The position numbers were made by a program, and so were the translations under genes. From contig OY725490.1 in assembly GCA_963281255.1 (NCBI GenBank), positions 2,294,001-2,358,000 of the forward strand: a DNA stretch of 64,000 nucleotides, given 5' to 3'. The stretch's first letter is position 1. Each line of letters opens with the position of its first letter. This document shows positions 3,001-64,000 of the stretch, piece after piece. The notes beneath the pieces are model-generated. The model was not told the origin of the DNA, did not search any database, and saw nothing but the letters and a program-made list of their open reading frames with translations. This DNA is from Aphrocallistes beatrix (taxonomy: Eukaryota > Porifera > Hexactinellida > Sceptrulophora > Aphrocallistidae).

Positions 3001-6000
3001 CATTTGAAAGAGCATCGGTAGGGTTACATTAGATATGCTAACCTAATTCTGAATCAAATTGAACACCAAGATATATCACAATAACGAATACTTATTGAAC
3101 GCCCGTAGTAGATTAACAGTTAAGAGAATCTTAAATCGTTTAACCGATCTGCGTTATTTTCTAATTATTTACACTAATTTCATTGTTTTTCGAAGGAGAT
3201 TCATGAATATTACTTAAAATTTGATAATATATAATTTCCATTTTCTAAACAAATAGTATATTTTCCGACTGCTGAAGATTATTAAATTTTTTAATATCAG
3301 GTTAAAGATTAGTCCAAAATCCATATTTCTACTAATTAATATTGACGTCAGTTAACCGTTCAACCACCCTGGAGGAAATCGGAGGAAAATAGCAGAGTCC
3401 TAAAATCGGAGAACCAACGCCAGCCTTTTTCTAGTTAATAAAGCAGTTTTTTCCTTCAATTAAAGATATTCAATATGTTTGAGTTAATAAAGTAATAAAG
3501 ATACACCTTAAGAAATCATTACTGGAATTGTGGCACTGGTATCAGACAATTCGGTCTACTGAGAGATAACTTATCAATTGTAATCGGTTTTAAATATTCC
3601 TAGATTTTTGGCGATTACTCAGAAGAAGTGGAGAGAGTGTTATTGGTTTTAATTACAGACCTATCTTTAAATAGTTCAGAAGCAATCCGAATAGAGATTA
3701 ATGGAACTAGTAAGTAGAATACCGATGTAAACATCTTTAAATAAACAAACAAATGAGTGTTATATTCTTTAAACCTATCTAGCTGTTGTTTTGGTGAACT
3801 TACCAACTGGAGGTACTGCTTCAATCAATATTACCAGCAGCATCAGCATATCTACAGACCCTGATAGTTTTCCAAGTAAGAATTATTGACTACCTAACCT
3901 GTTGAATAGGAACATGTTAGTTCAAAATGTAGAAATGATTTCCAACTAGCTTAGTTTTGAATCTTAAAAAAAGTTACCATACATAATGTATTATTTTCAA
4001 TTTTACTGAGGAGTAAAATTTATTAGTTTATTTCTTAAACTCAGCGATACTTTACGCGAATGAAATTTGGTCACTACAAGTTCTATAGTGCATCAAAACT
4101 AATATACTATTGACTTTAACTTAACATTATATAGGCGATACAACATTAGCTGCTTTGGTGATGAATAGTGACTCAGAAGAAATATTACAAACTCTCACAG
4201 ATTCTACAATGTAAGAGTAGTGATGTGATATTTGTTACAATCATTTTATTTCTTCGATTAATCTACTAAGTAGGAGAAGCGAATTTTTCATCTATAAAAG
4301 GGATTTTCTAATAAACTAATCACTATTAAAAGAGTGAATCCTTGCTCAGTATTTTGTTTCAAGCCAATAGAAATGTTATTTCTATGTTATTATTCTGAAA
4401 TGCTTTGAAGGACTACATTCGTTAGAGTTGTCTGCCATTTGCTCAGTATTTATTGTGTGGTACTACATTAGTGTAATATATATTAGGAGGTATCACTCTG
4501 TTTTGTATCTAGGATGTTCATTAGAGATATCTGCATCCTGGTTTCAGACAATGAACTCTCCGGAACAATATCGCTGGTCTTCACATACGATACAGCATTG
4601 GTAATTCAATGTTCCATTAATTGTATCTTTGCTTATTGTTATTTACATCTGACTATTTAGTTTGGAGATGAGGATATAACCTGCAATTTCTATGACAACG
4701 TTACATCGTAAGTTTGAATTTGAATATTATGAAAAATTAATATAAATTGCTATTGAATACATATATTCAATGCATCGCCATTCTATCTCGCTATTTATAG
4801 TGTTTGGTCTTCAGAAGGAATTGAAACGGTTAGAAATGGAGATGTCATAGAATGTGTGACCAACCATTTCACTTCATTCGCGATACTGATTCGCATAAAA
4901 TATCAAGACAATATTGGGAGAGGAGAAGAACTAGCACTGTCCATTATCAGTTATATTCTCCTCTCTTCCTCTCTAATCGCACTCATCCTATCCATTCTCA
5001 TCTTCATTGTGATTCACAAGGAGTTCTTTCAAGTTGAAATGAACATAATTTATTTCAATTATGCACTTTCCCTAGCACTAGCCATTCTCGCTTTTATCTT
5101 TGGCATTCAGTTGACTTCCATTCACCCGATAGCTTGTAGTGTGTCCGTATTTCTGCTCCATTATTTCTGGCTAGCTGTCTTCAGTTGGAGTCTCTGTGTG
5201 TCGATTGAGATCATCTACTTACTATGGATCACGTCTCTGAACAGGAAGAATCTGTTTTGGTTCTTGCTTCCTCTTGGTTGGGGTCTTCCAGTGCCTATTG
5301 TGGTCATATCAATTGGTGTCCGTCACGACTCTTATCTCCATTCAACAGCTGACTTTTGCTTCCTTTCCTACTCCAACGGACTGATTTGGTCGTTCATTGG
5401 ACCTATCCTCGTACTGCTGTGTCTCAACCTGATAGCTCTCATCATGGCGTGCATAAAGATAGTTCTGATTGCAAAGAATGGAGACAAGCGTAGGAATGTC
5501 TCTAATTGGGAAGTAGCAAAGCAATCTGTGATTAACTCATCTTTTCTGTTTCCTGTGTTGGGAGCTCCTTGGATTCTTCTTCCAATTAGTTTACTTGTGA
5601 ACTCATTCGCTTCTACGACTCTTTTTGAGTGGATTTTCATTATCCTGAATAGTCCCAGTGGCATTCTGTTCTTCATTCTGTTTACGTTAAGGCACGATAT
5701 TGTAAGAGAGAGGCTGTTCAGAAGGAAAACAGAAACTTCTAACCAGCATTCGAATGAACTCAATTCAGTTCCTAAATATAACACTCCTCGCGTTATCCGC
5801 CCAAGAAAGAATGTCATTTCTTCCCAAACTTGTGAGTCTTATGTTTCAGGGATGTCTTCAAATGATACTCTCCCACCTAACAATATGCAAACCACCGAGA
5901 ATAACTCGAACACCATTTTCAAGAAGGTCAACTTGAAGTGTTTGAACAGCGATGCAATATCTGATGGAATTAATGGAACAGTAATTGAGAATTGTCAAGC

Positions 6001-6034
6001 GATTCAAGACGTTTTGAAGAAAAACTCATTTTGA
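83..6034 (+). CDS. Gene A: adhesion GPCR, 3' part (GAIN-like, GPS, single-exon 7TM); 5' end outside window
   Basis: Exons read from splice sites: 83-138, 201-233, 3604-3709, 3783-3875, 4135-4210, 4513-4600, 4661-4707, 4801-6034. Phases agree throughout and give 576 codons plus TGA. The first seven exons and their introns match gene B closely. The GPS lies across the exon 4661-4707/4801 junction: Cys-x-Phe, W-S-S-E-G, then C-V-T-N-H-F-T, with His and Thr at the expected cleavage point. Downstream is a class B2-type seven-helix domain with no intron, including L-N-S-P-S-G-I-L-F-F in helix 7, then a tail of about 115 residues rich in Ser/Asn. The 7TM is nearly identical to gene C, not to gene B, so this is a chimera. 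The second intron (234-3603) is swollen by transposons. Role inferred: surface receptor with autoproteolysed, tethered-agonist signalling; the ligand-binding end is off-window. An exon between 233 and 3604 could have been missed. Confidence 0.85.
376..724. mobile_element. hAT-like non-autonomous element in intron of gene A
   Basis: Ends are inverted: CAGGGCTGGGGTTGGTTAAC at 376 and, reverse-complemented from 724, CAAGGCTGGATTCGGTTAAC. The 7-bp AATGGTT flanks both sides (369-375 and 725-731), close to the 8-bp duplication made by hAT elements. No coding capacity. A partial reversed copy lies at 3112-3369 and a fragment of one end at about 1853-1880. Confidence 0.65.
745..1508. repeat. Long inverted repeat, about 178-bp arms
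   Basis: 745-922 and 1332-1508 are almost perfect reverse complements, separated by about 410 bp of AT-rich spacer. Each arm contains the same short open frame, which is why two similar short ORFs appear on opposite strands; neither looks like a gene. Probably a foldback transposon or two opposed copies of one element. Confidence 0.8.
1641..1819 (+). repeat. Dispersed MITE-like repeat, copy 1 of 3
   Basis: About 180 bp starting near an AGCTCCTTTAG motif and ending GGAGGACTGTATATTGCCC. Similar copies lie at 8619-8810 (reverse) and 49661-49848 (forward). All carry AGGAGCGTGAAAAT and a later AGGAGC-TA; no ORF. Superfamily not determined. Confidence 0.7.
2258..3105 (-). mobile_element. Mariner-type element, internally deleted
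   Basis: Terminal inverted repeats begin CGGGCATTCAATAAGTAGTC at 2258 and, from the other end, CGGGCGTTCAATAAGTATTC. Both ends abut TA (2256-2257 and 3106-3107), the mariner target duplication. At 848 bp it is shorter than a complete mariner, and the enclosed transposase is broken. Confidence 0.85.
2371..2904 (-). pseudogene. Mariner transposase remnant, N-terminal two-thirds
   Basis: The frame encodes paired helix-turn-helix DNA-binding regions (Q-R-A-Y-V-K-I-R-T-L-L near the start; I-V-D-W-A-R-R-F and R-A-G-R-P in the linker) and reaches the first catalytic motif, I-V-T-G-D-E-T, which holds the first Asp of the DDE/D triad. It then jumps to a short C-terminal-looking segment and stops, so the second and third acidic residues are missing. 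The only candidate ATG upstream (near 2917) is one base out of frame with it. Similar to mariner/SETMAR-like transposases; inactive. Confidence 0.85.
3112..3369 (-). repeat. Partial reversed copy of the 376-724 element
   Basis: Reverse complement of about 428-672, ending GTTCAACCACCCTG, which matches the CAGGG terminus. It is cut short at the mariner's right end. With 376-724 it forms an inverted pair about 2.4 kb apart that encloses the mariner and the 745-1508 inverted repeat. Confidence 0.7.
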
Positions 6035-19015: not shown

Positions 19016-20230
19016 TCAGTATTTCTGAAAGCAGTCATTCTTTACACCGCAGTTAACACATAAAATAGATCCACTGTTATCTAGTGCTATACCACGTGAG
19101 AACTTGAGATGTCCTCTTCCTAATGAGTGCTTGAGAATTCCATTAGGAGAGAATGTACGAATTTCTGATGGGTCTTCGCTTGAAATAAGAAAGTTACCTC
19201 TGGAATCAATTGTAAAAAAGCAGGCAGTAGTCATTGGTTCTTTCTGTCCTCTAAGCTTGATTGTGTTCTCAAGGCGACAATCCTTGTTATAGCAATAAAC
19301 TTCATTTTGTTTTAGAGATAGTATGTAGATAGAGTTAGCATGGATAGTGATGTCATATGGATATTTGATTTCTCCGTAAGCAAAATCTTTCAGGTATTTA
19401 AGTTCAGAATCGAATATGTTAATCCGTTGTATGCTAGGATCACACACATAAACCAAACCTTCCTCATAACACAGACCTTTTATATCACTGAAGCATCCTG
19501 GTGCAGTACCTCTTGAACCAGCTTTCTTCAAAAACTTTCCAGATTTATTGAACTTAAGTAAACATGTTTCTTGATCAGTCACGAATACTTCATTTTCTGA
19601 CAAACAAATTCCATGAGGAGCTTTCAAGTATTCATGAGTGAAAGATCGTAAATAATCTCCGTTAATACTCAAGACTTGAATACGATTGTTGCTATCATCC
19701 ACTACATAAACCTCGTTAGTGTTTCTATCAATCGATATTCCTCTAGGATTCATAAACTGTCCATTCTTACGACCTCGTGAACATTTTTTAAGAATTGGAT
19801 TTCCCCTCCCTACGTACTCAGAAAGTAACTCAATGAGATCTGTTTCTTCGATTCCTTTCAGGATTTGTTCGGATGGACAACGAAATTCAATCAGATTCAG
19901 ATTTACATTTACACTCGGAGCTTTCATTTCCTTTTTCGAACGGATCTTCGCTTCGAAGCTCTCTTTTATCGGATCCAGATCTTCTCCAAGTAGATTGCTG
20001 GTCATCACACTAACTGCATTATCTCTCACTATTCGGAGTTGCTTGATTGCTTCGTCTAGTTGTATGTTATTATCATGAGCTGACTTCACAGCTGACAGAC
20101 GAGATAACAAGTCTTGTTTACGTGTCTCTAAAGCTTGAAACAATTCTTCAAATGTTTGAAAGATTTCTCTTTCCAAAGCTTGAAACTTTCTATCGAAATC
20201 ACTTTCTCTCGTAACTCCTGCAGTTGCCAT
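19016..20230 (-). CDS. NHL copy 1: coiled-coil plus NHL-repeat protein, 404 aa
   Basis: Intronless coding exon starting MATAG. Residues about 8-75 are charged and Leu-rich, with heptad-like L-E-R-E-I-F-Q-T-F-E-E-L (coiled coil). From about 155 come six NHL-type blades, e.g. G-Q-F-M-N-P-R-G-I-S-I-D then V-Y-V-V-D-D-S-N-N-R-I-Q-V: a six-bladed propeller. It ends N-D-C-F-Q-K-Y, like most copies. No RING or B-box is present, so it resembles the C-terminal half of TRIM-NHL proteins. Role inferred: scaffold or RNA/protein binding, unproven. An acceptor (ATATAG) lies six bases upstream of the ATG, so a non-coding first exon is likely. It has a two-residue insert (N-L) near residue 112 relative to the other copies. 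Confidence 0.88.
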   Translation of the reverse strand: MATAGVTRESDFDRKFQALEREIFQTFEELFQALETRKQDLLSRLSAVKSAHDNNIQLDEAIKQLRIVRDNAVSVMTSNLLGEDLDPIKESFEAKIRSKKEMKAPSVNVNLNLIEFRCPSEQILKGIEETDLIELLSEYVGRGNPILKKCSRGRKNGQFMNPRGISIDRNTNEVYVVDDSNNRIQVLSINGDYLRSFTHEYLKAPHGICLSENEVFVTDQETCLLKFNKSGKFLKKAGSRGTAPGCFSDIKGLCYEEGLVYVCDPSIQRINIFDSELKYLKDFAYGEIKYPYDITIHANSIYILSLKQNEVYCYNKDCRLENTIKLRGQKEPMTTACFFTIDSRGNFLISSEDPSEIRTFSPNGILKHSLGRGHLKFSRGIALDNSGSILCVNCGVKNDCFQKY

Positions 20231-22164: not shown

Positions 22165-22390
22165 GTAAGAAGCACAGTGGTTTGGGGCACGTATTTGGTA
22201 AAAGAATCTTGAACTCAGAAATACATTTACATATGATAATTAGCTTCCTAGATGTCTAAATATTATGTGTATCAAATATTGAGTGTATTGGAAGCCTATA
22301 TTTACAATACGACATCAAAGTATGTAGTCGATTTTGACTGTAGCTGAATACATATTTTGCGGTTTGAAAATATCAAAAAAATAAACATTC

Positions 22391-22506
22391 CTGCGGCCGT
22401 ATTCACTAAGAACTTAAGATCGATCTTAAGATCGATCTTAACTAAGATCGATCTTAAGACTTAAGATCGATCTTAGTGCTTAAGATCTTAGTGAATACGG
22501 CTGCAG
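22391..22506. mobile_element. Hairpin MITE nested in the Transib-like element
   Basis: CTGCGGCCGTATTCACTAAG at the left and CTTAGTGAATACGGCTGCAG at the right; the 116 bp between them consists of repeated TTAAGATCGATCTTA palindromes, so the whole element can fold into one long stem. Non-coding. Confidence 0.82.
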
Positions 22507-22955
22507 CTGATTTTGCTTTTTGAGTAAGATAGGATCGTTTCAACTTCAATAATATACAATACTCATTCTAAAATTGTTACATTTTAAGACTAAAACGACT
22601 GATTTTTTAATGTAGATTGTAATTTTTTGACTTTCCTTTTTGAGTCGAAAAAAGATACAGTTAATATAATTTTTACGTTTTGAAAATGGCCGCAAAAGTA
22701 AAAACCACCAAATACCAGTTGGAAATTGAGTATACTTACTCTCTAATGTCATATAGCCAACATGTTAAAATTATAAGACCCGATTCAATGCGCAACTTGA
22801 TCAAAGTTGCTACATTCCATTGTCTATTATTCGTTGCTAGGTTTCAACATATTAACCTACATATGCATCAATAACATATTTCTTATATAATACCATTTAT
22901 ATATTTGAAATAATCGATTACAACGTAATTTATACTTGAAAATCTACACAAGAAC

Positions 22956-23630
22956 ATGGCTGAAGGTCCCATTCTGAAAACCCGTCGTGATTTAGCGCAG
23001 ATTTTGGCTCAGAATGAGTTCAGCATTACTGTCACAGCTTCTAAAGTTTTAGAGCTGTTGAATCTTGACGAAACGAAACTTGTGACAATCACTTCTTTAT
23101 TGAGTAAGATCAAAATGAACATCAAAAGGTACAAAAGAAGTGTTGATTCACTGAATTCTGAGTGGTGGAATCACGAAATTCCATGGATCAATTCAGGTCT
23201 ATTAATTAACTCCTCAGATTTAGGAAAACTGTGTAAGGAAACATATATTTTAGTGCTAGATTCATTTCCATGGCCGAGCATCACGCCTACCTTACACAAG
23301 CTCCTAGCACACTCGGAAGAACTTATTCGAGAACATAATTCAGGATACGGATTGAAATCTCTTTCAGAAGAAGGTTCAGAAGCCTGCAACAAATTAGTGA
23401 GGAGATATCGAGAGAAGTTATCCCGTAAAAACAGCTTTGGATGCAATACCATCGATGTATTTGTGAGATTGTCGTCACAAAGCGACCCTGTATTGGTAGG
23501 CTATCGGAGGCATCTATCTTGTGTAAGATGTGGCCAATCGGAGAGAAGTAAATGCCATGTTGAGAGCCAACGAACTTCAAACATAGAGGCTCTCATTTCT
23601 TCATTGACAATTTCCAATATTGAAGATTAG
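22956..23630 (+). CDS. RAG1/Transib-family transposase C-terminal domain protein, 224 aa
   Basis: Uninterrupted ATG-to-TAG frame inside the Transib-like element. Residues about 108-160 contain T-L-H-K-L-L-A-H-S-E-E-L-I, then L-S-E-E-G-S-E-A-C-N-K-L-V-R-R-Y-R. In RAG1 the corresponding region carries the third catalytic acid (Glu962 in mouse) within an S-E-G-N-E-S-G-N-K motif followed by R-R-F-R; the match in order and spacing is good. A Cys-rich tail (C-V-R-C-G-Q-S-E-R-S-K-C-H) recalls the zinc-binding tails of RAG1-like transposases, but spacing differs. The first two catalytic Asp are absent, so it cannot transpose alone. An AATAAA follows at about 23661. The identification rests on recalled motif similarity, not a search. 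Confidence 0.72.
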   Translation: MAEGPILKTRRDLAQILAQNEFSITVTASKVLELLNLDETKLVTITSLLSKIKMNIKRYKRSVDSLNSEWWNHEIPWINSGLLINSSDLGKLCKETYILVLDSFPWPSITPTLHKLLAHSEELIREHNSGYGLKSLSEEGSEACNKLVRRYREKLSRKNSFGCNTIDVFVRLSSQSDPVLVGYRRHLSCVRCGQSERSKCHVESQRTSNIEALISSLTISNIED

Positions 23631-24164
23631 GTAAATATTCGTAAGAATTTATATTCCAATAAAGTAACTTGCTCAGTAATTTATACTCCAAATAAACAGC
23701 GCTTATTTTCAAAGTGACCCATGCGGTTTAGTCACCATTTAAACTATGAATTTCATTTAACAAATTGTCAGAAATTTGAAAGGATCACTAATAGTTCACG
23801 GTTTGTAAATATTGTATGATAATGAATCATGATCATGATGACATCAGCATCCTAAGATGGTTAGCATTATTGTGAAAAAAATAGTGTCACAACATAACTC
23901 ACATTTAGAGCAACCACTCTGTCAACTTTCAAACATATATGTCCCATATTGGCTAAGTAGCCACCTATTTTGCAAATTTTGATAAAATCCTGAAAGGTGA
24001 CAAATACGTCATAACTCTAAAAATAGAAGAGATATCAACTTTTTAAAATTTTATATCGATTCACAAGTATTGATAACCCATATATAAATAATACATTATT
24101 AGTCGCTAGGATATACCTAAATACCTAAAGTTTGCTAAATGCCATTTTGGACCATTGTGAGAAG

Positions 24165-29627: not shown

Positions 29628-29643
29628 TTCTTATACTGAAACT
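29628..29643 (-). promoter_or_regulatory. Conserved TATA-like promoter core, NHL copy 3
   Basis: AGTTTCAGTATAAGAA on the minus strand; predicted first exon ends at 29515 (GAG|GTGAGT), followed by a roughly 1.2-kb 5'UTR intron to the acceptor beside the ATG at 28289. Confidence 0.55.
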
Positions 29644-29847
29644 AGTGTGAGACTATACTGTTTAGTCCAAAATAGAATCAACTACTAACATCTCAAATTA
29701 CAAGAATAGTAAATCAAATTGATTTACATTACTTCTCATAACAGCTATATAAACTCATCATCTTACAATACTAATGCTCTCTATTAGACATAAGGATATT
29801 GAGATGTCGAACCTTTTGATACTTAAAAGAAGATTCAATACACACAG

Positions 29848-29923
29848 GCGATACAACGATAAGTGCTTTGTAGATGAGTAATCACTCAGATGGAATACTA
29901 CGAACAATCTTGGATCCTACAAT
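29848..29923 (+). pseudogene. Relic of receptor exon (as at 22089)
   Basis: GCGATACAACGATAAGTGC onward, with ACACAG acceptor and AATGTAAG donor kept but the same in-frame TAG. Followed directly by AGAAGCTAGC, the uninterrupted target of the Transib-like insertion seen in the first unit. Confidence 0.8.
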
Positions 29924-30330
29924 GTAAGAAGCTAGCTAGATCATTATACAAGTACTGAGTATTGTATTACAATAATAATACAGGATGTGTCTCTAACTGT
30001 ATATCTATGGAAAAATTGCCTCAGTTAAGTATTAGAGAGCAGTTAACAATTAGATTGGTTTGTTAATAGTGTTTCTCTCTAATTATATTTACAAGGTGGG
30101 GGGGGAAACTTGGACATTATACATAACATAGAAACTGATTTGTCCAACTTCGTTTAAATGAGTCTGGAAAGACAGCACTCTCTGGAATTCAGAATTCACT
30201 TCCACTCACCACAAAGAATACTATTCTAATGAAATTCTTAAATTTGGAAATCATTAAAATGCAAAATAATTAAGATAATCCGCCTTTCTTAAGCATGCGA
30301 GATAACATTTAAAAAATGAGTATATAAGAT

Positions 30331-37693: not shown

Positions 37694-40609
37694 CAGGGGC
37701 GTCGGAAGCTCGTATGTCATGGGGGGGATTAAAGAATAATAACATTATGAGATTCATTAACTTTAATTATTCATTCAGAATTTTGTATTTAAGAGCTAGG
37801 GAATTTGCCAAACTTCCTTTCGCGGCGTTCATTACTTATGAACGCTCTTGCTATTTTCAGACACTCTGTTTCCCCAGATTTTTCCCTCTCGATTGCGAGA
37901 ATGGAGAGTTGGGTCATTCTTGCTTGTGTCATTGTCGATCTGAGCCATGTTTTAAGCCGACGAAGTACACTAAAGCTTCGTTCGGCACTCGCTCCAGAGA
38001 CTCCAACTACCAATAGAATTGTCACTAGCCGTGTAATATTAGGTAGCATATCTCTCACCTCTTTAGTCAATGACTTCTACATTGAAATAAAGCATGTAAT
38101 CGACGTCACCGGTGACTTTTCTGACTTTACTAATCGCTTTAACATCTGAAGTTCGAATTGCAAATCTTCGACTGAAGATAAGTCATTCTTGTAAAAGGTG
38201 TACACAGATGATATCAAGCTATCTTTATTACCTTCTGTATTTATCACTGACAGGAAAAGCTGTTCAATATTACCTATCATACCCAAGTTAGTTTTATCGA
38301 AGGTATGTTTCAATTTTTCAACCAACACATCTAAGAACTCTATAAACTTTGCTCTCCAATGTTCATAGGGGGATAACTGTAAGGCTGGAGTATAACTTGT
38401 TAGATTAATGTCGTATTCTATTATTGGATTCTTTTTGCGGATACGGTTTTCTTTTGGAGGATGAATATCTAATTCTTCAGAGATTTTCAAGCAATTTTTG
38501 TAAATCTCGTTGAAATCAGTGTCGTTCATTCTCATATCAGACAGCTCATCAATGACATAATTAGCTGCTTCTATAGCTCCAAAGATTGTGGCTTCTTTGG
38601 ATTGTAGTGCCTTAGATAGCATTTCTACTCGTTTGAATATTGGAAGAAGCAAGTTAATTGAAAGTAGAGTCTCAAACTGATAAAGCCTAAGCTAGAAACC
38701 ACGAGCAGTAGCTGCAGTTTTGGCATCTGCAGTCTCAGCTAAGTCATGCATGACTTGAAGCAGGACATCATATTCGTTTCGGGTTGCTGATAAAAGTTTA
38801 CCACGAAGTACCCAACGAGTTGGACATGCTGGTCGTCGAACAGCAGAGTTTAGTTCGTCATCTGGATGAAGCTCACTGTGCAATTTCTTCACCAAATCAA
38901 ATCTTTTACGGCTGTCACGTATAAAATTCGATTGAGAATTCAAAAATTGCATCAAATCACAACTCCAACGACTGCTTTCGATAGTATGTTGCAGATCTAA
39001 ATTTAGACCGTGGTTTTTGCAATACACAAAAACAGCTTCTGGAACAATTTTCTGGATTTCTGCTCTCACGCCTTTATGAATTCCTATCATATTCGCTGCT
39101 CCATCATATATTTGACCGCGACAGTATGAAATATCAATATTAAGCCTTAGAAGTGCATCTTTAATGGTATCTGCAATCTTCTCTCCAGTAGTTGAAACCA
39201 TTGTGACTAAACCCAGAAAGTATTCGTTTACAGTGAAATCTGGAGCCACGCTTCTAAGAATCACTGACAACTGTTCCTGTCCTGTAATATCTGTTGTTCC
39301 ATCAGCACAAATCATAAAGTACTTGAAATTTCTTAATTCTTCAGAAATTCGTCGTTGAACATCATGAGCTAATAGCTGGATAATCTCATTTTGAATATCA
39401 GGTGACATGTATTCCAAACGGGTAGAAGAAAGACATTTGGAAAAACTAGTGCTATCAGTTGAGCGCAGTTTCATCAGCTTAATTAGTAAACCGGAGTCTG
39501 TATCATGGCCTCGAACTGGCAACGCACACTCACCCAGAAATTTCAGACTAGTTATTACTCCAACTAGGAAGCTCCGCCACTGTTCTTGCGAATTCAGCAT
39601 GGCTGCATCCAACTGAGTAGAGATAGTAGCTTGCTTCGTGACATACAGCTGTACTTCTACAGCAACCTTGTGTTGCCGTGATTTCTTGTGGTCATGAATT
39701 TTTCTATCGCTTTTTTCCAATTGCAAAATCCAATATTGCTATCAGTAAATGAAGGTTCAATTTTTAGATTATTAGGGAATTTTCGTTCTTGTAGTGTTTT
39801 GGAACATGGGTAACATATCACGATGTCGCGTTCGTGTACATAGTGCAAGAAATCAAAAGTTTCGAACCAATGTTTTTGGGGCTTTAAATTGATCAGATGA
39901 TTTTTCCCAAAGGTTCTGAAGGGTAAACGATTGCAGTCTAGAGGGACATAGCGTTCTGTGAGACCTAATGAATTCACTAAGTCAGCTTCACCAATCACGA
40001 TTTCATGCTCATCTAACTCCACAGATTCGACATATGGTTCTATTGATTCTTCGAAACCAAGATGGGCCTCTTGATCCGTATTATTAGTGAATCCACCTTG
40101 AGATTGACTGGCCTTCGGTATTTTGCACATCTCTACAAGCGATATTTGTCGATGTCTCTTACGATTATTACTACCAGATGGACAGGTCATGTTTCTTTAT
40201 TGTAGTTTTTAGAAATCGTCGAAATTAATTAAGCACAGAAACAACAAATCAATGATAAAATCGTAATCTGAGTTAATTTATATTAAGTTGAATCATTACT
40301 ACTGTCTCAGTAACAGTGTACTTTTTCATCACAGCAGATATGAAACAAATGGAAAACAATTTTATAAGTTATCAGTTATGTATACACACATAACAAGGTT
40401 TCAATCATCAACATATTCTATGATTTAAAGTATCAGGCTTCAAACCAGTTTTCAAATTGCAGACTGGTGTATGAGGTTTCCTATTCAAGCTAAGAAATTT
40501 GAAATTTGTTACTATCAAATCGCGATTACGCGTGGGGGGGATAATCCCCCCTCGTTTAAATTATGGGGGGGATGAATCACCCCCATCCCCCCCGCTTCCG
40601 ACGCCCCTG
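37694..40609 (-). mobile_element. Complete hAT transposon with 8-bp target duplication
   Basis: Perfect 16-bp inverted ends CAGGGGCGTCGGAAGC and an exact 8-bp duplication GGTATAAG (37686-37693, 40610-40617). The homologous intron of gene B (near 17008) has a single, uninterrupted ATTATAAGAGC. Subterminal G-runs lie near both ends. 2916 bp; the transposase on the minus strand is broken in three places. Confidence 0.95.
37789..40190 (-). pseudogene. hAT transposase (ZMYM1-like), one frameshift and two TAG stops
   Basis: Reading 40190 downward: N-terminal region with a TTF-type zinc-finger pattern (K-H-W-F-E-T-F, C-Y-P-C, H-x(n)-H), a frameshift near 39695, then the catalytic region (I-C-A-D-G-T-T-D-I; C-R-G-Q-I-Y-D-G-A-A-N-M; C-K-N-H-G-L-N-L), an in-frame TAG at 38692-38694, an alpha-helical insert, a second in-frame TAG at 38077-38079, and the C-terminal hAT dimerisation region (S-A-E-R-S-F-S-V-L-R-R-L-K). 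Everything else is collinear, so inactivation is recent. Confidence 0.9.
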
Positions 40610-43791: not shown

Positions 43792-43807
43792 TTCTTATAC
43801 TGAAACT
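43792..43807 (-). promoter_or_regulatory. Conserved TATA-like promoter core, NHL copy 6
   Basis: AGTTTCAGTATAAGAA on the minus strand; first exon predicted to end at 43679 (GAG|GTGAGT). Confidence 0.55.
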
Positions 43808-44011
43808 AGTGTGAGACTATACTGTTTAGTCCAAAATAGAATCAACTACTAACATCTCAAATTACAAGAATAGTAAATCAAATTGATTTACATTACTTCT
43901 CATAACAGCTATATAAACTCATCATCTTACAATACTAATGCTCTCTATTAGACATAAGGATATTGAGATGTCGAACCTTTTGATACTTAAAAGAAGATTC
44001 AATACACACAG

Positions 44012-44087
44012 GCGATACAACGATAAGTGCTTTGTAGATGAGTAATCACTCAGATGGAATACTACGAACAATCTTGGATCCTACAAT
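44012..44087 (+). pseudogene. Relic of receptor exon (as at 22089)
   Basis: Third copy of the decayed D-T-T-x-x-A-L exon with the same in-frame TAG and intact-looking splice sites. Confidence 0.8.
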
Positions 44088-44533
44088 GTAAGAAGCTAGC
44101 TAGATCATTATACAAGTACTGAGTATTGTATTACAATAATAATACAGGATGTGTCTCTAACTGTATATCTATGAAAAAATTGCCTCAGATTAGCATTAGA
44201 GAGCAGTTAACAATTAGATTGGTTTGTTAATAGTGTTTCTCTCTAATTATATTTACAAGGGGGGGGGAAACTTGGACATTATACATAACATAGAAACTGA
44301 TTTGTCCAACTTCGTTTAAGTGAGTCTGGAAAGACAGCACTCTCTGAGGATAGAATTCACTTCCACTCCTCACAGAGAATACTTTTCTAATGAAATTCTT
44401 AAATTTGGAAATCATTAAAATGCAAAATAATTAAGATAATCCGCCTTTCTTAAGCATGAGAGATAACATTTAAATAAATGAGTATATTTATCTTTTAGAT
44501 ATCTTCATTATATTTATCATTATTCTCCAATAG

Positions 44534-57722: not shown

Positions 57723-60397
57723 TTAAACTGAATGGCTATTCTCTAGCACTAGATCTGGACCGCATTTCGCCTGACTGCTGATACGGTCCACGATTAACAT
57801 TTTACAAACGACGATGGAGTTGTACTCTGTGGCTGGAGAATCAGTAGGTGGGGAAATACCAGAAACCAGCTCCATAGAATTAGATTGACAGGATGTTGAT
57901 GGATAGTTTATCTTAAAACGAATTGCGTGAGGAGTATTGAATTTAGAAAGTGAATTCGTTAGATTGGAATTTGGATTTGAAGGATCATAGATTTTCCTTC
58001 TAAGTAACTTTTGCTTTACAATATCGTGCCTTAACGTAAACAGAATGAAGAACAGAATGCCACTGGGACTATTCAGGATAATGAAAAGCCACTCAAAAAG
58101 AGTCGTAGAAGCGAATGAATTGACAAGCAAACCAATTGGAAGAAGAATCCAAGGAGCTCCCAACACAGGAAACAGAAAAGATGAGTTAATCACAGATTGC
58201 TTTGCTACTTCCCAGTTAGAGACATTCCTACGCTTGTCTCCATTCTTTGCAATCACAACTATCTTTATGCACGCCATGATGAGAGCTATCAGGTTGAGAC
58301 ACAGCAGTACGAGGATAGGTCCAATGAACGACCAAATCAGTCCATTGGAGTAGGAAAGGAAGCAAAAGTCAGCTGTTGAATGGAGATAAGAGTCATGACG
58401 GACACCAATTGAAATGACCACAATAGGCACTGGAAGACCCCAACCAAGTGGAAACAAGAACCAAAACAGATTCTTCCTGTTCAGAGACGTGATCCAGAGT
58501 AAGTAGATGATCTCAATCGACACACAGAGACTCCAACTGAAGACAGCTAGCCAGAAATAATGGAGCAGAAATACGGACACACTACAAGCTATCGGGTGAA
58601 TGGAAGTCAACTGAATGCCAAAGATGAAGGTGAGAATGGCTAGTGCTAGGGAAAGCGCATAATTAAAATAAATTATGTTCATTTCAACTCGAAAGAACTC
58701 CTTGCCAATCACAATGAAGATGAGAATGGATAGGATGAGTGCGATTAGAGAGGAAGAGAGGAGAATATAACTGATAATGGACAGTGCTAGTTCTTCTCCT
58801 CTTCCTATTTCTTGATCTCTCTCACGGATCAGTATCCCGAATGAAGTGAGGTGATTAGACTCACACACAGTCAGATTCCCTTCTGAAGAGTTCAGATCCA
58901 AACCTTCTGACACAAAAATGGAATTCTGTAAATCTAGAAAGACACACTTCGCTTCTTGATTATTGTTGTCAGGCGTTAAAAAGCGCAAAAGAATAGGAGA
59001 CGGGAGGTTACTAATGGAACTATTAGCTGGCACTATCAAGGAGAGCAACTTGCTCCCGATTGAATAATTATTTATCGATTTAGATGAGCTAGAAACGACA
59101 GAGATTAAAGCGAGACTGTACTTAAATTCTCCTCCACTACTCAGAACTCGTAATACCGTACCTGGAATAGTTGCACTCTCAAATTCTGTAAAACTATCTG
59201 ATTGAGGAATTGTGAGCTCTCCTATGTTATTTGCATGCGGAATTCTTTGAGCTATAAAATCGAGACGATCTGAGCGGAATACAAGCTCTGTTACGTCTCC
59301 TTTTAAAAGGGTTAGTAATATTCTTCCCACATTTTCTATGCCTGATATCAATTTATTTGTATAGACTCCTACTTGTACAGTTCCATTTTGCTGTAATGAG
59401 AACCTACTCTCATCAGTCTTATGTATCTCCTGAATTCCGATTAGATTCGAAAGAGTGCCGACTACAAGGTTGATACTTTCATCAGATAGATTGAAAGAGA
59501 ACATCTCCAAATTTTCAATAAGTAATATGCTCGCATTTACTAATGTTCCAAATGTGCTATTTGCTTCAGCATTGCTATCATTTGATAAGATTTGCAATAG
59601 TTTGATTGCTCGGATAGTCTCTTGAAAGGTAGCATTTTCATTCTCGCTAGTCTCTTGAATGGTTATGATTTCTAAAAATAGAATGAATATAGCATGGTGT
59701 TTGAGACGATACCGGATTTTAGAAAAATAACATGCAAATAATTTTATTAAATGAATTTGATAAATTTTTAAAATCAGAATAAATCAGAAAAGCCTCACAG
59801 CATGGGAAATGCTCTTTTCAAATCTCAAACGTTTTCTATATATACAAGCGGGCTTCCCACGCTTGTGCTGCGCGGCTGGCGGACACTGTATCCGCCAGAG
59901 GCACTCTTTGGGCGTCTAAGCTCACATTAATTAATTATAAAGTAGATAACATCTCAAAATACTCATCATGTTTTGATGATAGTTGAATCATATGTGAGAA
60001 TATTAATATGCACAGCAATTATAATTTCAACCTTTTATCACCTGAAATGACTGAGTTATATTTGAGGAACTGAAATTTCTAATGATAAAAAAGGTGACAA
60101 TGACGTCATAATTCCATAATGAGTCGACATTTTGGTCTGAGCTCAGAACTTAGTGGAAGATAAAAGACTCCCACATGCCAAAAAAAAGCCTGGTAGTTTC
60201 TTCAATCAATTCGTTACAGATATATATACAGTTAACTCCGCTTAATAGGGTCACTGTTTAATCGGGTCACTTTTGGCAGGACCGGAATAGCTTTCACACA
60301 TAGAGGCTAATACAAAAATATTTTCGGTTAATAGGGTTCTGCGCTTAATCGGGTCAAAATACGCCCAGACCGATGTGACCCTATTAAGCGGAGTCGA

Positions 60398-62920: not shown

Positions 62921-64000
62921 CTATTTGTGATGATAGTGTAGGTGATAGTGTAGGTGATGGTATAGCTGATAGTATAGTTGATAGTGGAGGTGATGGCGTA
63001 GCTGATAGTAGAGGTGATGGTGTAGCTGATGGTGTAGTTGATAGTGTAGGTGATGGTATAGCTGATAGTGTAGTTGATAGTGGAGGTGATGGTATAGCTG
63101 ATAGTGTAGTTGATAGTGGAGGTGATAGTGGAGGTGATGGTATAGCTGATAGTGTAGTTGATAGTGGAGGTGATAGTGGAGGTGATGGTATAGCTGATAG
63201 TGGAGGTGATGGTATAGCTGATGGTGTAGTTGATAGTGTAGTTGATGGTATAGCTGATAGTGTAGTTGATAGTGTAGCTGATAGTGTAGTTGATAGTGGA
63301 GGTGATAGTGGAGGTGATGGTGTAGCTGATAGTGTAGGTGATGGTATAGCTGATAGTGTAGTTGATAGTGTAGTTGATAGTGGAGGTGATGGTATAGCTG
63401 ATAGTGTAGCTGATAGTGTAGTTGATAGTGTAGTTGATAGTAGAGGTGATGGTATAGCTGATAGTGTAGTTGATAGTGGAGGTGATAGTGTAGGTGATAG
63501 TGTAGTTGATAGTGTAGTTGATAGTAGAGGTGATGGTATAGCTGATAGTGTAGCTGATGGTGTAGCTGATAGTGTAGCTGATAGTGTAGTTGATAGTGTA
63601 GCTGATGGTGTAGCTGATGGTGTAGCTGATAGTGTAGTTGATAGTGTAGTTGATGGTATAGCTGATAGTGTAGTTGATAGTGGAGGTGATGGTATAGCTG
63701 ATAGTGTAGTTGATAGTGGAGGTGATGGTATAGCTGATGGTGTAGTTGATAGTGTAGTTGATGGTATAGCTGATAGTGTAGTTGATAGTGTAGCTGATAG
63801 TGTAGTTGATAGTGGAGGTGATGGTATAGCTGATAGTGTAGGTGATGGTATAGCTGATGGTGTAGTTGATAGTGTAGGTGATGGTATAGCTGATAGTGTA
63901 GTTGATAGTGTAGCTGATAGTGTAGTTGATAGTAGAGGTGATGGTGTAGCTGATAGTGTAGTTGATAGTGGAGGTGATAGTGGAGGTGATGGTGTAGCTG
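62921..64000 (-). CDS. Candidate Ser/Thr/Pro-repeat (mucin-like) exon of gene C, extends beyond window
   Basis: On the minus strand the minisatellite reads as an open frame of tetrapeptides [A/T/P]-S-[L/P]-[T/I/P], for example L-S-T-T, P-S-A-T and L-S-P-P, with no stop over about 1.07 kb. Next to its end the frame runs L-S-S-Q-I and reaches a CAAATAG|GTATTT donor at 62921 in phase 1, the same phase as the FN3 exons of gene C. Ser is invariant at one position and Thr and Pro are frequent, as in O-glycosylated stalks; gene B has a shorter Thr/Ser stalk in the same place. No start codon is visible because the exon continues out of the window. It could equally be a non-coding minisatellite in an intron. 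Confidence 0.42.
   Translation of the reverse strand, partial: QLHHHLHYHLHYQLHYQLHHHLYYQLHYQLHYQLHYQLYHHLHYQLHHQLYHHLHYQLYHHLHYQLHYQLHYQLHYQLYHQLHYQLHHQLYHHLHYQLHYQLYHHLHYQLHYQLYHQLHYQLHYQLHHQLHHQLHYQLHYQLHYQLHHQLHYQLYHHLYYQLHYQLHYHLHYHLHYQLHYQLYHHLYYQLHYQLHYQLHYQLYHHLHYQLHYQLHYQLYHHLHYQLHHHLHYHLHYQLHYQLHYQLHYQLYHQLHYQLHHQLYHHLHYQLYHHLHYHLHYQLHYQLYHHLHYHLHYQLHYQLYHHLHYQLHYQLYHHLHYQLHHQLHHHLYYQLRHHLHYQLYYQLYHHLHYHLHYHHK
62931..64000. repeat. 12-bp minisatellite, at least 89 units
   Basis: Unit GNTGATRGTRKA with variation almost wholly at five positions. Every 60-base line from 62941 to the end begins in the same register (GGTGAT, GCTGAT or GTTGAT), so no indel that is not a multiple of 12 occurs. 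Higher-order repeats (blocks of several variants in the same order) are visible, pointing to expansion by slippage or unequal exchange. Confidence 0.97.

Follow-up and report, generated by a model that had tools for sequence, protein, structure and literature searches.

An internally deleted, non-autonomous Transib transposon and its recently mobile relatives in a genome most likely from a glass sponge

A transposon copy of the Transib superfamily lies in the window, by which we mean the whole stretch of 64,000 nucleotides of DNA that was analyzed. We hold with high confidence that this element, which is non-autonomous and has suffered an internal deletion, belongs to a low-copy family, here called family A; the genome most likely comes from a glass sponge. 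The copy at 22173-24159 is real, young and ordinary for a DNA transposon. Glass sponges are among the earliest-branching animal groups. RAG1, the antibody-gene recombinase thought to have descended from the Transib family, has its closest relatives outside RAG in Transib elements. The main worth of the window copy is the proof of recent movement provided by empty sister sites and the pointer to a full-length parent. Of greater interest is the wider Transib population of the genome, which has intact frames and features resembling those of RAG1 and deserves a specialist look.

The element starts with CACAGTGG and ends, on the reverse strand, with CACAATGG; CACWRTG is the terminus motif of the Transib superfamily. 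An earlier note on this DNA had described ends resembling the heptamer of recombination signal sequences (RSS) together with an exact AGAAG target site duplication (TSD), and both were confirmed (Table 1). The window was scanned for the pattern CAC[AT][AG]TGG...CCA[CT][AT]GTG with the ends 300-4500 bp apart and identical 5-bp flanks; the sole match was the element itself, and 300 mononucleotide shuffles yielded none. The two sister units said to lack the insertion were found as well: the uninterrupted 16-mer AATGTAAGAAGCTAGC occurs at 29921 and 44085 with 0 mismatches (the window has a third match, which carries 2 mismatches and falls on the 3' junction of the element itself). Joined to each other, the flanks of the element align to 29635-30218 with 94.5% identity over 587 bp (4 gap openings) and to 43799-44379 with 94.5% identity over 584 bp (2 gap openings). 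The pair of ends CACAGTGG/CACAATGG named in the note is present in the window copy, but CACAATGG is a private change of that copy, the other three double-ended copies found having CACAGTGG at both ends. CACAGTG stands at both ends in three of the four family A copies, the window copy carrying CACAGTG/CACAATG, and only about 9 bp are common to the two termini of the family. The boundaries of the other genomic copies were also checked, and perfect 5-bp TSDs (AGAAG, ATAGG, TAGTG and CAAGA) flank all four double-ended copies found.

Table 1. Positions of the elements and their parts (coordinates given without a contig or locus refer to the window)
Feature	Position	Strand	Length	TSD	Remarks
Transib element (family A), non-autonomous	22173..24159	+	1987 bp		both ends and TSD
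Left TSD	22168..22172	.		AGAAG	read from the sequence
Right TSD	24160..24164	.		AGAAG	read from the sequence
5' terminal inverted repeat CACAGTGGT, RSS heptamer CACAGTG	22173..22181	+			read from the sequence
3' terminal inverted repeat CACAATGGT	24151..24159	-			CACAGTGGT in the other three double-ended copies found
Nested palindromic MITE with internal AAGATCGATCTT repeats	22394..22506	.	113 bp		gap in the other three copies; C12 shows its empty site
3-bp duplication of the MITE	22391-22393 and 22507-22509			CTG	
ORF: about 77 aa of transposase N-terminus fused in frame to C-terminal part with third catalytic Glu	22956..23630	+	224 aa		
Internal-deletion junction with TCAA short repeat	23186..23190	+			1451 alignment columns against the full-length copy
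RAG1-profile segment, containing LSEEGSEACNKLVRRYR with the third catalytic residue	23277..23429	+			profile positions 555-602, residues 108-158
Remnant of CCGHC zinc knuckle (CTT1-like tail) without GHT	23520..23555	+			CVRCGQS-ERSKC
Empty site, sister tandem unit	29921..29936	+			16-mer match and flank alignment
Second empty site, sister tandem unit	44085..44100	+			16-mer match and flank alignment
C12 copy of family A	C12:481592-483474		1883 bp	ATAGG	
C3b copy of family A	C3:1718905-1720784		1880 bp	TAGTG	
Nearly full-length parent copy of family A	C2:5356663-5359992		3330 bp	CAAGA	
Family C element	L050		3065 bp	exact	one double-ended copy; ends found by requiring a TSD
Family D element	L053		3005 bp	exact	one double-ended copy; ends found by requiring a TSD

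The host genome was searched as 28 contigs (100.5 Mb). Since only 40 of the 374 candidates from the DNA search with family A were scored, the copy count is a lower bound: beyond the window copy there are at least three double-ended copies and at least one 3' fragment. Divergence among the four double-ended copies is 0.05-1.07%. Compared with the full-length copy on contig C2, three of the four (window, C12 and C3b) have the same 1451-bp deletion. C12 and C3b differ from each other at 1 position in 1880 and from the window copy at 12 in 1869 and 13 in 1866, respectively; differences to the full-length copy number 20 in 1869 for the window copy, 16 in 1879 for C12 and 17 in 1876 for C3b. A 4-bp frame-breaking insertion is common to C12 and C3b, which occupy different sites with different TSDs. 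A copy that no longer encodes even the shortened frame has thus moved, which means mobilization in trans. The window copy alone has eight substitutions, one of them converting the 3' CACAGTG to CACAATG, a 2-bp and a 1-bp indel, a 9-bp loss and a 116-bp insertion. The latter consists of a 113-bp palindromic MITE and its 3-bp CTG duplication; relatives of the MITE were found at at least 34 other places in the genome (91-100% identity over about 85-100 bp). Going only by the length of its TSD, we tentatively take it to be of the PIF/Harbinger type.

In the full-length copy on C2 the transposase frame is broken, leaving two open pieces that overlap, one of 512 aa and one of 247 aa. The larger piece contains the motifs DGLDGSG and SMFDGKM of the two catalytic Asp, and the Glu region lies in the smaller one. 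The earlier note had proposed looking for full-length copies that bear the upstream Asp; the DNA search recovered both motifs, in a copy with a broken frame. No intact autonomous copy of family A is among the copies found, this one being the only full-length member, and the source of transposase would accordingly have to be a lost, unassembled or unscored copy, or else cross-mobilization.

The ORF at 22956-23630 comprises 224 codons and a stop. It had been described as an intact C-terminal transposase frame; the frame exists and keeps the Glu region, but it is a fusion generated by the internal deletion rather than an intact frame. Both catalytic Asp were removed by the 1451-bp deletion, so that the D-D-E triad is not encoded and the window copy is a non-autonomous member of the Transib superfamily. 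The assignment of these Asp and Glu residues as catalytic is based on alignments to relatives. In alignments to relatives the deletion also took regions matching the parts of RAG1 that we take to be its nonamer-binding and zinc-binding domains. Through the 9-bp loss, Gly-His-Thr of the zinc knuckle is gone from the window copy. TCAA is found on both sides of the deletion junction in the full-length parent, suggesting repair at microhomology. The 224-aa ORF is presumably a left-over frame and not a working transposase.

According to the explanation we prefer, the 1451-bp deletion of the middle of the transposase gene would have arisen when a gap was wrongly repaired at a short microhomology. 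The deleted form would have been excised and reinserted in trans by transposase from another copy, in a cut-and-paste reaction via the CACAGTG ends. It now occupies three genomic sites, at each of which it is flanked by a different perfect 5-bp duplication, and the window copy has entered one unit of a tandem array in which two sister units keep the empty site. Ds-like elements and the KP-like P elements are known internally deleted derivatives of DNA transposons. The family A derivatives resemble such elements in the in-frame internal deletion, the retained ends and the several copies moved in trans, and differ from them in having a Transib transposase and Transib ends. The 224-aa fusion protein might instead have been kept as a regulator, a dominant-negative or end-binding repressor comparable to internally deleted P elements, as its in-frame deletion and its retained C-terminal region would allow. 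We consider this very unlikely: by chance alone roughly one deletion in three keeps the frame, both sister deletion copies have lost the frame, the zinc-knuckle Gly-His is missing from the window copy, and the fusion protein is devoid of the region resembling the nonamer-binding domain (NBD). That the open frame belongs to a domesticated or fixed host gene derived from Transib is extremely improbable given the intact ends and TSD, the empty sister units, the near-identical copies elsewhere and the MITE nested upstream of the frame.

Membership in the Transib/RAG superfamily, as asserted in the earlier note, is favored by the profile check. The 224-aa protein scored 20.6 bits against the Pfam profile of RAG1 (cut-off 25) and had no match in PHROGs. 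Among structurally solved relatives the window ORF matched HzTransib best (E 1.6e-10), followed by RAG1L (9.7e-6) and vertebrate RAG1 (0.018). A profile built from three further families of this genome, B, C and D, gave the same order (HzTransib 7e-41, RAG1L 2.6e-13, mouse RAG1 5.1e-13), and its match to mouse RAG1 starts in a stretch that we take to be the nonamer-binding domain. HzTransib (PDB 6pqn) is presumably from Helicoverpa zea, and the RAG1L used in the structure comparison is, we assume, that of amphioxus. The element is a Transib, with a predicted transposase nearer to Transib than to RAG1L. The note's reading as a RAG-type transposon (RAG1L-RAG2L) was not supported, since Transib fits better and one full-length element from each of families A-D contains no second ORF of at least 130 aa (counted in stop-to-stop frames, which a gene in short exons would escape). 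A RAG2-like neighbor, for which the note had proposed a search, is likewise missing between the element ends by this measure. In the full-length family A copy no ORF of at least 115 aa exists beyond the two transposase pieces. The space beside the transposase amounts to 638 + 533 bp in family A and 699 + 523 bp in family B, leaving little room for an exon-split RAG2-like gene. In the whole genome the RAG1 profile had 19 matches, none above the cut-off and all 19 in Transib-like places, the controls having matched in 0 of 14 genomes with no known RAG1L among the sequences scored; a search with PF03089 (RAG2) found nothing, as was also the case in its control genomes, so that this negative carries no weight by itself.

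One could still read the element as a RAG-like (RAGL) transposon, a RAG1L-RAG2L element that has lost RAG2L and in which the window ORF is the tail of RAG1L. Like ProtoRAG and other RAGL elements, the sponge elements have heptamer-like ends and 5-bp TSDs. The tail of the full-length copy carries the CCGHC motif (CVRCGQSGHTERSKC), which the available sections of one study describe as conserved in RAG1L (PMC7204232), and the motif is present in families A-C. The spacing between the second Asp and the Glu in families B, C and D (254, 253 and 257 residues) also resembles that of RAG1L (252) and not that of HzTransib (211). The same tail and zinc-binding region have, however, been reported for Subgroup I Transibs (PMC9435367). 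Moreover, HzTransib gives a better score than RAG1L or RAG1 with both the window ORF and the family profile, and the full-length elements examined, one from each of the four families, contain no second ORF of at least 130 aa, which speaks against RAGL membership. On the ranking of the matches and this lack of a second ORF the RAGL reading was rejected, and we regard it as highly improbable. With Transibs and HzTransib, by contrast, the elements have in common ends of the CACWRTG type, 5-bp TSDs, a single transposase gene and the best sequence match. They depart from HzTransib in the length of the transposase stretch (712-725 aa in families B-D against 497 aa in the solved chain), in the Asp-Glu spacing of these families and in the CCGHC tail of families A-C, and the window copy differs further in being a deletion derivative.

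Transib families have been recently mobile in this genome, and they include longer relatives with intact frames. With 150 of 167 candidates scored, the window protein matched at least 150 stretches of the genome at E <= 1; the weakest of these matches are not significant. For a 712-aa relative, of whose 399 candidates 63 were scored, at least 75 stretches matched at E <= 1e-5, and one element may account for several of them. Five of the nine family B loci fetched (L043, L044, L045, L047 and L048) are double-ended and 3412-3425 bp long, and L046, L049, L051 and L052 are cut or rearranged. The TSD is exact in four of these five copies and has one extra base in the fifth. An uninterrupted frame of 734 codons is present in three of the five (L043-L045), and the other four double-ended copies are 99.27-99.77% identical to L043. 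The near-identical copies with intact frames make this family suited to biochemical testing. Opposite profile positions 410-457 of families B-D, at most 13 HzTransib residues are found and RAG1L is aligned throughout, as compared by sequence alone. The end-finding rule used gave no ends for loci L075-L077; at L054 it gave only one candidate pair, with 5-bp flanks that do not match.

Both ends of family B contain CACAGTGGTTTA followed by AAAGAATAGG, the two blocks being separated by 5 bp at one end and by 14 bp at the opposite end. Family C has the identical 5/14 layout with AGGGAGTTG. At the resulting 9-bp offset 10 of 10 bases are common to the two ends in B, 9 of 10 in C, 7 of 10 in D and 5 of 10 in A. 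This offset had been noticed by eye before the test, and the fair control is therefore the best match at any offset, which was reached by 1 of 200 shuffles for B and 2 of 200 for C (0 of 200 each at +9 alone). For family D the +9 repeat was not significant (21 of 200 shuffles), and the ends of three family A copies showed no bipartite repeat (120-138 of 200 shuffles at +9, 80-92 of 200 at any offset).

A CCGHC-type tail (CxxCxxxGHx5C) was found in family A (the full-length and two deletion copies) and in families B and C. To count tails, 30 loci were checked and 6 without a readable Glu motif were left out; 15 of the 24 scorable loci have the tail, although some of these overlap one element and one has a stop inside the motif. 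The remaining nine are the window copy, one truncated B copy and seven D-like loci. Tail-less Transib loci (L053, L054, L029-L031, L033, L034, L036, L037, L075 and L076) coexist with tailed ones in the genome, and L053 has kept the RAG1L-like Asp-Glu spacing without a tail.

Transibs have been split into Subgroup II and a RAG1L-like Subgroup I; the latter, which has ctenophore, Hydra and bacterial members, retains the CTT1 tail, asymmetric ends and the alpha11-alpha12 region (Tao et al., 2022, PMC9435367). In the same work the ends of AanRAGL are given with spacers of 4 and 13 bp, a difference of 9 (PMC9435367). In its available part, Martin et al. (2020, PMC7204232) present the CCGHC tail as a RAG1L feature; since it occurs in RAG1L and in Subgroup I Transibs, the tail alone must not define RAGL. 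The sponge families resemble Subgroup I in the CTT1-like CCGHC tail (A-C) and, by sequence, appear to do so in a zinc-binding region of RAG1L length (B-D) and in asymmetric bipartite ends (B and C). They differ in that the sponge tail reads Cx2Cx3GHx5C, with one extra residue compared with the published x4, in that family A is without a clear bipartite end and in that family D is without a tail. As far as sequence can tell, families B and C appear to fit Subgroup I on tail, alpha11-alpha12 region and ends. Family A fits by its predicted tail and not by its ends, and the window copy itself has lost the tail. Two scans of the genome_contigs collection for prokaryotic Transib relatives that could serve for rooting found none.

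The origin of bipartite unequal ends and of the C-terminal tail is an open question, and this genome presents families with and without each of them side by side. We see an even chance that a glass sponge harbors recently mobile Transibs which keep much of the RAG1-type kit without RAG2, as living intermediates that already possess a precursor of the 12/23 asymmetry. If so, this kit would consist of an NBD-like region, a zinc-binding region of RAG1 length, the CCGHC tail and two-block ends with spacers differing by 9 bp. Hundreds of metazoan Transibs are mentioned by Tao et al. (PMC9435367). The literature covered, which does not take in Repbase and many papers, has no work joining Transib with hexactinellids, and by term counts the word Transib is absent from the main text of two glass sponge genome papers, one of them PMC10282587. 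The families described here add members to a known superfamily and have probably not been reported from this host before.

The mitochondrial contig (C28, L074) encodes nad3, cox1 and cox2 in this order on one strand. Over 459 aligned codons of its COX1, TGA reads as Trp (11 of 12 at conserved Trp positions), and the 11 AGA codons fall on conserved Ser (5), Gly (3), Ala (2) and Asn (1), never on Arg or Lys. ATA stands at Ile in 17 of 36 cases and at Met in 2 of 36, four of the five AAA codons stand at Lys, and TGG does not occur. With AGA read as Ser a bilaterian host was considered as well; it was set aside because ATA reads as Ile, AAA as Lys, cox1 does not use TGG and nad3 lies before cox1, which agrees with the glass sponge Aphrocallistes vastus. 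According to the paper on A. vastus mitochondria, AGR codes for Ser in all three glass sponges then known, AUA is strongly used for Ile and UGG rarely if ever, and nad3 has moved to a place beside cox1 in A. vastus (PMC2267718). These features support the sponge host considered in the note, very probably a hexactinellid near Aphrocallistes. For A. vastus an assembly of 80 Mb has been published (PMC10282587).

The tandem array of the window extends over 19019-54126 on the minus strand and comprises eight related ORFs, six of 417-421 codons and two of 247 and 283. NHL repeats were detected in the ORF at 19022-20230, the only one scanned. Identity among the repeated blocks here is about 85-98%, and the Transib copy lies between two array ORFs. 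Flanking the NHL-type array are two genes of the adhesion-GPCR type (GPS and 7tm_2) at 4757-6028 (plus strand) and 57726-59783 (minus strand), which share a 93% identical inverted stretch (4869-5792 against 58849-57926). A DUF4371 match at 38695-39738 on the minus strand is perhaps a remnant of a hAT-like transposase, as we presume. From 62931 to the window edge at 64000 runs a long tandem repeat that is open in several frames on both strands.
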